This document shows, one piece after another, positions 41,524 through 44,008 of a DNA stretch of 64,000 nt (position 1 is the first letter of the stretch; each line of letters opens with the position of its first letter). The stretch comes from Rodentibacter genomosp. 1 (GTDB taxonomy: Bacteria; Pseudomonadota; Gammaproteobacteria; Enterobacterales; Pasteurellaceae). A program made the position numbers and the translations under genes. The DNA lies in contig NZ_MLHN01000011.1 in the NCBI RefSeq assembly GCF_001999285.1, positions 1 to 64,000 of the forward strand, written 5' to 3'. Below the pieces are notes generated by a model. It did not search any database, was not told the DNA's origin, and saw nothing but the letters and a program-made list of their open reading frames with translations.

Positions 41524-41661
41524 TTTTTTTGTTTATTTGTAGGGACACACTGAGTGTGTCTGATGATAATATATTGAAATAATTTTATTTCGGACACACG
41601 CAGTGTGTCCCTACATATCGTTGAAATTTCTATTTTTGTGTATTTGCTACATAATACTGGA
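41524..41661. repeat. Palindromic repeat element, copy 1
   Basis: A large hairpin starts just after the cyuA stop: arms 41538-41560 and 41593-41615 (TGTAGGGACACACTG..GTGTGTC) pair with few mismatches, and each arm is itself partly palindromic. After it come CATATCGTTGAAAT and TTTGCTACATAATACTGG. The same order recurs at 43121-43266. The left terminal repeat seen in copy 2 is missing here, cut by the end of cyuA. Confidence 0.8.
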
Positions 41662-41780
41662 TTTTTCGACCGCACTTTTATTCCCAAATTACATATCAAT
41701 TAACTAAAAGTTCTTGGCATATTCTCGTTGAATTTATTAAAAATAACTCATTCTTTTTCTAGATTATCTTAGGGGGGGCT

Positions 41781-42821
41781 ATGCTTTTGACTGGGTTATT
41801 CTGTGGTATTTTGCTTGGGTTTGTGATGCAACGGGGGCGATTTTGTATTACCGGCGCATTCCGTGATTTATATGTGACAAAAAGCAATAAAATGTTTGTT
41901 GCTTTGTTGATTGCTATCACCGTGCAATCTATCGGTTTTTTTATTTTAAAAGAAGTCGGCTGTCTGAATATTGAGCCTGCCAAAAATTTTGAATTTGTTG
42001 CCGTTATAGTGGGCTCTTTTGTATTTGGTATCGGTATTATTTATGCCGGTGGCTGCGCAACAGGGACTTGGTATCGTGCGGCAGAAGGTTTAATTGGTAG
42101 CTGGGTGGCGTTGTTCATGTATATGCTGTTTAGTGCGATGATGCGTACAGGTCCACTTGGTGAATTCAACCAAACATTACGCAGTGTAAAAATAGACGAA
42201 CGCAGTATTTATGAAAGTGTTGGAATATCTGCATGGTGGCTGGTAGCACTACTAACCCTTGTCACTGGCTATTATGCGTATAAACACCTTGCAAAACCAC
42301 AGGTGAAAATCGCCACACTAAAACCGAAGAAAACCGGCATTGCCCATATTTTATTTGAAAAACGTTGGCATACCTTTGTTTCCGCCATATTAATCGGTTT
42401 GATTGCATTTGCAGCTTGGCCGTTAAGTGTGGCAACCGGACGAATTGGCGGTTTAGGTATCACCACGCCATCGGCAAACATTATACAATATCTCATCACC
42501 AATGAGACAAAATTCATCAATTGGGGCGTATTCTTGGTATTAGGGATCTTTATCGGTTCATTCATTGCCGCAAAAGGCAGCAACGAATTTCGTCTCCGCC
42601 TACCGGATACTCAAACCATGATACGTAGTGCGTTCGGTGGTTCGTTAATGGGTATAGGTGCGAGCTTAGCCGGTGGTTGCTCAATAGGCAATGCCCTTGT
42701 CGCCACTGCTTATTTTTCATGGCAAGGTTGGGTATCCCTTCCATTAATAGTACTTGGCACTTGGTTTGCCGCTTACTTCACCATCATCCGTCCACAACGA
42801 TTAAAAACTGCAAACGCTTAA
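41781..42821 (+). CDS. YeeE/YedE-family thiosulfate transporter (TsuA-like)
   Basis: Inner-membrane protein of 346 residues with nine or so hydrophobic segments, COG2391. The three cysteines known to matter in thiosulfate transporter TsuA are present: Cys22 (QRGRFC), Cys92 (YAGGCATGTWYR) and Cys300 (LAGGCSIGNAL). Start ATG 41781 follows GGGGGG. It lies 14 bp upstream of a TusA-like gene, the usual tsuA-tsuB pairing. Uptake of thiosulfate or a related sulfur or selenium compound is inferred; the exact substrate is not determined. Confidence 0.82.
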   Translation: MLLTGLFCGILLGFVMQRGRFCITGAFRDLYVTKSNKMFVALLIAITVQSIGFFILKEVGCLNIEPAKNFEFVAVIVGSFVFGIGIIYAGGCATGTWYRAAEGLIGSWVALFMYMLFSAMMRTGPLGEFNQTLRSVKIDERSIYESVGISAWWLVALLTLVTGYYAYKHLAKPQVKIATLKPKKTGIAHILFEKRWHTFVSAILIGLIAFAAWPLSVATGRIGGLGITTPSANIIQYLITNETKFINWGVFLVLGIFIGSFIAAKGSNEFRLRLPDTQTMIRSAFGGSLMGIGASLAGGCSIGNALVATAYFSWQGWVSLPLIVLGTWFAAYFTIIRPQRLKTANA

Positions 42822-42835
42822 ATTAGGAGAAAAAA

Positions 42836-43057
42836 ATGATTGTCAAATTACCAACACTGGGTTTAGTTTGTCCCTTCCCCTTAGTGGAAGCAAAAGCCGA
42901 AATGGCAAAACTCAATAAAGGCGATGGGCTTGAAATTGAATTCGATTGTACTCAAGCCACAGAAGCAATCCCAGCTTGGGCAGCAGAGGAAGGTTATGAA
43001 GTGACGAATTTTGAACAAATCGGCGATGCAAAGTGGACAATTACTGTCTTGAAATAA
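42836..43057 (+). CDS. TusA/SirA-family sulfur carrier protein (TsuB-like)
   Basis: Small cytosolic sulfur carrier, 73 residues. The persulfide-forming Cys is in LGLVCPFPLVEAKAEM (Cys12, CPxP motif). Fold and length are normal for TusA. GGAGA precedes the ATG, and it is co-transcribed with the YeeE-type gene. In characterised pairs (TsuB with TsuA) the carrier supports thiosulfate uptake and passes on the sulfur. It is distinct from the housekeeping TusA of tRNA thiolation, which is not in the window. Confidence 0.85.
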   Translation: MIVKLPTLGLVCPFPLVEAKAEMAKLNKGDGLEIEFDCTQATEAIPAWAAEEGYEVTNFEQIGDAKWTITVLK

Positions 43058-43093
43058 CACGATGAAGTGCGGTTAAAAAACAAGGAAATTTTT

Positions 43094-43266
43094 CAGTATT
43101 ATGTAGCAATTGCATAAATCTGTTTTTTTGGTGGTTTGTAGGGACACACTGCGTGTGTCCGTTATAAAATCAAAATGATTTCAATATGTTAAAATCCGGA
43201 CACACGCAGTGTATCCCTACATATCGTTGAAATGTCTATTTTTGTGCATTTACTACATAATAATAC
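43094..43266. repeat. Palindromic repeat element, copy 2 (complete)
   Basis: A 173-bp imperfect palindrome in the same orientation as copy 1. Outer inverted ends are CAGTATTATGTAGCAA (43094-43109) and TTTACTACATAATAAT (43249-43264). The inner hairpin arms are 43137-43160 and 43198-43221 (TGTAGGGACACACTGCGTGTG and complement). It has no coding capacity. Terminal inverted repeats and a pair of copies suggest a MITE-like element; no target-site duplication is clear. Confidence 0.75.
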
Positions 43267-43298
43267 CGAAATTTTTAACCGCACTTTAAGTAAAAAAA

Positions 43299-43859: not shown

Positions 43860-44008
43860 GCCTAAGCTTTATTTTCTGTATTAGCGTGCGGCTAACAAAA
43901 GACATTTTTCTGATATATGTATTCCTACATTTCTTTGAAATTTCTTTTGCTAGTCGCAATCTGGAAAATAAAGCGTTGTTTTTAATATCAAAATTAAAGG
44001 AAAACATT

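Follow-up and report, generated by a model that had tools for sequence, protein, structure and literature searches.

The window analysed here is a stretch of 64,000 nucleotides from Rodentibacter genomosp. 1 (NCBI RefSeq assembly GCF_001999285.1, contig NZ_MLHN01000011.1, positions 1 to 64,000), in which a sulfur transporter gene and a sulfurtransferase gene lie between two copies of a short palindromic element. We consider it very likely that the copies are two independent, ancient insertions of a miniature inverted-repeat transposable element (MITE) at two uptake signal sequences (USS), and that the family to which they belong picks its target relative to the USS. This reading draws on observations of four kinds, namely the MITE anatomy of the copies, the empty sites and target duplication of copy 2, ends held in common with transposase-bearing elements, and a phased spacing between insertions and USS. 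The features at the locus are as follows (REP, repetitive extragenic palindrome).

41524-41659, + strand: copy 1, a left-truncated MITE adjoining the stop codon of an SDH_alpha-family gene
41539-41561, + strand: REP palindrome 1 of copy 1
41592-41614, - strand: REP palindrome 2 of copy 1, inverted
41669-41677, - strand: USS core (ACCGCACTT) oriented toward copy 1, whose right end is 9 bp away; several relatives have it upstream of yeeE too
41781-42821, + strand: yeeE/tsuA-family sulfur transporter gene (PF04143), outside the mobile element
42836-43057, + strand: tusA/tsuB-family sulfurtransferase gene (PF01206), outside the mobile element
43065-43073, + strand: USS core AAGTGCGGT oriented toward copy 2, whose left end is 20 bp away; the empty sites have it too
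43086-43093, no strand: target duplication AAATTTTT, left of copy 2 (0/8 mismatches)
43094-43268, + strand: copy 2, a complete 175-bp MITE with ends CAGTATTATGTAG... and ...CTACATAATAATACCG
43138-43160, + strand: REP palindrome 1 of copy 2 (GTAG head)
43198-43220, - strand: REP palindrome 2 of copy 2, inverted
43269-43276, no strand: target duplication AAATTTTT, right of copy 2, completing a perfect 8-bp direct repeat
43278-43286, - strand: USS core (ACCGCACTT) oriented toward copy 2, whose right end is 9 bp away; paired with the left USS as the stem of the hairpin 3' of tusA

Copies 1 and 2 share one orientation, lie 1.6 kb apart and match each other at 94% over 66 nt and at 89% over another 38 nt. 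The palindrome GGACACACNNNGTGTGTCC, with up to three mismatches allowed, occurs five times in the window against 0.10 expected, and four of the five occurrences fall within the two copies; the like-oriented repeats that the initial annotation had placed on either side of the gene pair are present, far above chance. Copy 2 does carry terminal inverted repeats (TIRs), in an element longer than had been proposed (43094 to 43268), and copy 1 does begin directly after the stop codon of the upstream gene; the suggested likeness to MITEs is borne out by the TIRs and, for copy 2, by the target duplication. The ends of copy 2 have the form C(A/G)GTATTATGTAG, the MITE type represented by both repeats having ends CGGTATTATGTAG..., and the window MITE encloses a GTAG-type REP doublet, a pair of palindromes with GTAG heads in inverted arrangement. 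At its left, copy 1 is missing about 28 bp of the element; its right end lies at 41659, and the missing part was probably lost together with the DNA between copy 1 and the upstream gene. A further stretch of 31 bp upstream of pnp (43918-43948) is 84% like the element's right half (a 19-mer with 3 mismatches) and is possibly a third, decayed copy.

The site of copy 2 is empty in five relatives, R. pneumotropicus, R. heidelbergensis, R. rarus, R. myodis and H. parainfluenzae (L040, L042, L045, L047 and L048), where two inverted USS form a hairpin in the tusA-yhcH interval. R. mrazii has a shorter element at the copy 2 site and, by eye, an apparent remnant of about 24 bp at the copy 1 site. It is thus probable that both insertions are older than the separation of the R. 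mrazii lineage from the window species.

The same element is dispersed through the genome and the genus. At least 81 BLAST matches were counted on both strands of the own genome (40 of 110 candidates scored), the palindrome alone gives 174 matches on both strands vs none for a control, and element matches occur in 13 of the 15 genus genomes, the own genome included. The elements are short, have no coding capacity and are bounded by TIRs. For 28 own-genome elements with both ends, the flanking 8 bp were duplicated with at most two mismatches in 17, eight of them perfectly, a count made without a shuffled control and, like the spacer count below, after removal of one duplicate row (L001). Across 21 elements mean pairwise identity is 0.72-0.81 in the TIRs and REP arms and 0.44-0.58 in the shell interior and spacer, the value for the spacer being lowered by its two orientations. 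The initial annotation had held that repeats common at unrelated gene ends would be terminator-type repeats; the dispersal through the genome bears this out in part.

The same ends delimit much larger elements in the Pasteurellaceae. The 25-bp end is present in 87 of 140 family genomes, spread over 30 of 43 genera, a reversed control pattern giving 0. About 20 convergent pairs were noted among the matches listed, of which 13 from other genera were taken (12 of 1.5-10 kb and one 163-bp MITE), and perfect 8-bp duplications of an AT-rich target flank 11 of the 13. The 1.5-10 kb elements, found in the own genome as well, in some cases carry IS1595-family transposases and restriction-modification genes. 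Domains of the IS1595 type were detected in L195 (PF12762 and PF12760, in two genes), L267 (the same two) and L268 (PF12762), and L195 also matches NF033547 above its cut-off. In L195 the two IS1595-family transposases lie one toward each end, together with an N6 methylase with an HSDR_N domain and a specificity subunit; cargo elsewhere includes Eco57I/type IIG genes (L201, L202), a cytosine methylase (L192), type III restriction genes (L196) and a DUF4143 ATPase (L197). A transposase-like frame toward each end, with small uncharacterised genes, was seen in L192, L195, L196, L200, L201 and L203 (by Pfam in L195 only); three small genes of L195 have no Pfam match, and one of the small genes could be a target selector. 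Three elements of about 3.3 kb with the same ends and perfect duplications (L193 in G036, L198 in G031, L204 in G032) carry DoxX, MbnB/TglH/ChrH-type and DUF2063 genes, assigned by Pfam in L193 and by similar reading frames in the other two. No transposase-like frame was seen in any of the three (Pfam on L193 only), and their cargo was apparently moved in trans.

Ends of this kind also adjoin transposases in the own genome. On contig C11 an IS1595 transposase with N6-methylase and specificity fragments runs up to the same end at C11:4251, and on C6 an apparently split IS1595 transposase runs up to the same end at C6:4827, so the MITEs share their ends with transposase-bearing elements of one and the same genome. 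A third end, on C25, bounds an AAA ATPase with RloB, matching AbiLi/AbiLii models. The three elements are apparently cut by contig ends, and the other ends of those on C11 and C6 were not seen. Solo ends in this genome were considered as lone TIRs, an idea that was dropped: four of them (C6, C7, C11, C25) adjoin transposon-type genes near contig starts. In G001 and G003 there are 49 and 57 ends (at most one mismatch) and no IS1595 transposase match; their MITEs seem to have outlived their transposase.

The IS1595-type DDE transposase and the 8-bp AT-rich duplications place the larger elements in the IS1595 family. In the portion of PMC12561309 consulted, ISApl4 (IS1595 family, IS1016 subgroup) is described as 712 bp long with 14-bp ends GGGGCTGTACTAGA. 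The elements found here resemble it in the family of their DDE transposase, in the 8-bp AT-rich target duplications and in the Pasteurellaceae host (PMC12561309, as far as that portion goes), whereas they differ in ending in CGGTATTATGTAGCANNTGCACAAA, in a zinc-ribbon domain, in restriction-modification or other cargo and in a pair of transposases placed at opposite sides (assigned by Pfam for L195 and, for further elements, from similar reading frames). Membership of the IS1016 subgroup, for which the consulted text indicates ends of the GGGGCTGT type, was rejected, the ends here being CGGTATTATGTAG vs GGGGCTGTACTAGA in ISApl4.

Relative to the USS, insertions are placed in steps. Among the first 40 ends, 29 had cores facing the end, all at 9 bp (n=8), 16-20 bp (n=18, ten at exactly 18) or 27-29 bp (n=3); one core faced away, and 11 ends were without. 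The sole fresh test is a set of 40 further ends, picked by hand among the matches listed (genomes G015-G063) before their flanks were read, with used ends omitted and some unused ends not taken. In this set a USS facing the end was found within 40 bp in 21 cases, at 16-20 bp in 19, at 27 bp in one and at 37 bp in one, which puts 20 of the 21 in the 9, 16-20 or 27-29 bp windows. Of 45 MITE sites with good duplications, 28 showed a facing USS, and those windows contain 32 of the 34 distances.

In the first USS test, made on sequences in which the pattern had been noticed by eye beforehand, 11 of the 13 TIR-bounded elements had a facing USS on at least one side, six lying in the loop of a USS pair, and single ends of transposase-bearing elements in the genus had one in 10 of 12 cases. 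The signal is weaker for the own-genome MITEs, with strict USS pairs at 3 of 17 sites with good duplications vs 0.7% expected, and a USS in any orientation near 11 of 17 vs 17.7% expected. By comparison, a facing USS lies within 40 bp, per side, of 4-8% of AT-rich intergenic positions in five genomes, of 6% with tighter AT matching, and of 9% of positions within 100 bp of open reading frame (ORF) 3' ends (pooled; 8-11% by genome); the P values attached to these tests assume independent sites, an assumption that does not wholly hold. Both USS types, Hin-type and Apl-type as classified in the part of PMC1626085 consulted, are used; of the four other genomes sampled for the background, G036 and G055 have the first and G017 and G022 the second, with agreement in the flanks read. 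As a small control, ends of the GGGGCTG type at three genus loci, a fourth having given no ends, yielded five readable flanks, in which one facing USS occurred within 90 bp, at 70 bp, and none in the phased windows.

These results suggest a mechanism in which a MITE with the ends of larger Pasteurellaceae elements, some with IS1595-family transposases, would be moved in trans by an IS1595 transposase, duplicating 8 bp of AT-rich target. Of the AT tracts that follow the USS core on its 3' side, the duplication falls in the first, leaving the end 9 bp off, in the second (about 18 bp), or sometimes near 28 bp. In the simplest view the USS is read by the transposase, or by a partner protein that binds its core, and the cut is thereby set on one face of the helix, the steps being about one helical turn; that the phasing comes from bending by the AT tracts alone is a rival account. 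Copy 2 would then have landed at a USS belonging to the hairpin 3' of tusA. The IS1397 element of E. coli, found in bacterial interspersed mosaic elements, is an insertion sequence with a repeat-specific target, and the elements described here are like it in preferring an abundant, intergenic, palindromic host repeat; they differ in that the preferred repeat is the DNA-uptake signal and that insertion is phased in steps of about 9-10 bp from its core.

Three other explanations deserve weighing, of which the most substantial, to which we assign roughly one chance in four in our own judgement, is that the link to the USS is indirect: AT-rich terminator hairpins would be preferred, and USS cores have AT-rich 3' flanks. 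By eye, and apart from any statistics, some insertions do lie in hairpins other than USS (e.g., L197, L153, L244). The enrichment nevertheless persists against both the AT-matched and the ORF-3'-end backgrounds, and the distances speak against this view as well: they fall into discrete classes (9, about 18 and about 28 bp), and the cores point toward the transposon end (29 facing and 1 away; 21 facing within 40 bp in the fresh set). Far less probable, indeed very unlikely, is that the copies are plain REP or terminator-type repeats with an outer shell that is not mobile. Such a view would accommodate the GTAG-headed palindromes in inverted pairs, the very strong predicted hairpins (z -12.8 and -10.1) and the 30 of 45 own-genome REP doublets without one or both recognisable shell ends; it is contradicted by a clean empty site and an 8-bp duplication lying exactly at the shell ends of copy 2, and by the large elements with duplications of their own that the same ends bound.

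The initial annotation had noted a resemblance to a composite transposon; on that reading, or that of a mobile sulfur operon, the two copies would be ends carrying the yeeE-tusA pair. To this we give next to no probability, even though the copies have the same orientation at a distance of 1.6 kb and the wider family carries cargo, apparently even where no transposase accompanies it (L193, L198 and L204). The full pair is present in 12 of the 14 other genus genomes, and in 11 of these 12 BLAST matched no element within about 1.5 kb of it (G005 has an element downstream of tusA), which is the very finding that the initial annotation had named as refuting its idea. BLAST is blind to short remnants, and in G008 an old element end was seen by eye upstream of yeeE. 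The pair also adjoins yhcH-pnp in Haemophilus parainfluenzae (L048), the five empty copy 2 sites contradict the idea directly, and each copy sits at a USS of its own. Because copy 1 is without its outer left end, neither a complete outer boundary nor a common duplication encloses the gene pair. With relatives keeping the pair, and without two intact outer ends, the block as a whole was rejected as a composite transposon. Deletion of the operon by recombination between the direct copies, also raised, is possible; no case was seen among the genus genomes, G011 retaining the tail of tusA alone with no element matched there by BLAST and G009 having no match to the gene pair at all.

Against insertion of MITEs at phased USS positions, several points must be set. 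No transposition event was observed; two of the 13 elements from other genera have no perfect duplication, 11 of the 28 own-genome elements have no good one, and copy 1 has lost the left end that its duplication would adjoin. No facing USS core lies within 40 bp of 19 of the 40 fresh ends, and the rule is therefore a preference, or those ends have decayed or moved. In the MITE set 15 cores face away, six of them at 11 bp, a class that the simple rule leaves unexplained. The backgrounds rest on crude ORF calls, the fresh ends are partly non-independent (two G022 ends share a flank, and one end each from G028 and G029 look orthologous), and L199 stands in both the first 40-end set and the MITE set.

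What the MITE carries between its ends varies from species to species. Between the same ends, other genomes have different REPs, GTAGGGTGCGTTA in G001 and G003, GTARGGTGGGCAA in G003, GTAGGGGCGGGG in G021, G057 and G060, and GTAGGGGCGNACCGATGTG in G016 and G017, giving at least five different REP sequences across species. By their GTAG head, palindromic form, inverted doublets and many copies they qualify as GTAG-class REP doublets or REPINs, as characterised in the portions consulted of PMC3733652 and PMC3116915, from which they differ in that the doublet lies inside an IS1595-type MITE shell, with at least five REP sequences between the same ends, and in that no cognate RAYT flanked by REP was found among 20 Y1_Tnp genes examined. 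The consulted part of PMC3733652 offers a precedent in the GTAG-15 dimers within long palindromes of A. variabilis. Genes with the Y1_Tnp domain (the wider RAYT/IS200 group, of which RAYTs are a part) occur in all 15 genus genomes, the own-genome match having an internal stop; the window REP accompanied none of the 20 examined, a portion of the Y1_Tnp matches listed (21 loci, up to about 1.5 kb on each side, at most five mismatches), and on these a RAYT-driven origin of the whole element was rejected. Among 45 REP doublets in the own-genome loci examined, a shell end was recognisable on one or both sides of 37 and on neither side of eight, at a loose threshold of 4/15 mismatches and with the place at L189 counted twice as a doublet. 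Several shell-less doublets carry, by eye, decayed shell pieces; the notion that core-only copies are free REPINs was set aside, though the core may still move independently. The spacer between the REP arms occurs in both orientations relative to the shell (10 and 10 in the own genome; 3 and 8 among 11 elements from other genomes, L228 with a palindrome of another type being disregarded), perhaps switched by inversion between the arms.

The REPs may stem from repeated capture, or they may have a use for the MITE, such as preserving termination where a hairpin has been invaded. In the predicted fold, copy 2 and its USS pair form essentially one long hairpin (-92.1 kcal/mol, z -12.8). Copy 2 is a near-palindrome in the loop of the USS hairpin, which it lengthens, and the terminator 3' of tusA is therefore probably kept despite the insertion; with element and USS pair folding as one hairpin, the host may thus lose little. 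Many target sites resemble the USS-dyad hairpins (Hin-1 and Pam-1 families) of PMC2267715 in being inverted USS pairs and terminator-like hairpins; as far as the portion consulted goes, that paper treats the dyads themselves, whereas our observations concern insertions into them.

Locally, the finding is ordinary, two old MITEs, and the interest lies in the positional rule and the transposon family behind it. More broadly, we put forward as an idea, one that we hold to be somewhat less probable than its opposite, that a Pasteurellaceae-wide transposon family uses the DNA-uptake signal as its landing site and natural transformation as its vehicle, the MITEs being small members that have repeatedly gained GTAG hairpins. 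If so, many insertions would stay linked to one or two USS about 10-30 bp from their ends, competent relatives would preferentially take up the junction DNA and recombine it through the flanks, and a transposon carrying, in several cases, restriction-modification or other anti-phage genes would ride on natural transformation; the acquired GTAG hairpins may keep the invaded terminator working. Spread of USS-linked junctions by transformation is here a hypothesis. The idea bears on the routes by which mobile elements move among naturally competent bacteria and on the choice of their landing sites: USS-phased insertion would join transposition to transformation through a simple, testable rule. 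In the open literature, the closed literature lying outside the search, we found no report of USS-targeted transposons, the consulted portions of PMC3733652, PMC12561309, PMC2267715, PMC4943601 and PMC3339403 included, and those of PMC1626085, PMC8777487, PMC6992377 and PMC1939737 report none either. The present results account for a dispersed repeat family, and illustrate that two repeats bracketing a gene pair can mimic a composite transposon.

As for the genes themselves, those between the copies belong, as first annotated, to the YeeE/TsuA (PF04143) and TusA/TsuB (PF01206) families; their best NCBIfam models are TsuA/YeeE and TsuB/YeeD, each match falling under its curated cut-off. The gene upstream of copy 1 matches SDH_alpha (PF03313) in Pfam and no NCBIfam model, its name cyuA coming from the initial annotation alone. 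The interval from this SDH_alpha-family gene to yeeE, 257 bp in the window, varies strongly among species (L046, L048), and in H. parainfluenzae a second YeeE-like gene and one further gene lie upstream of yeeE.
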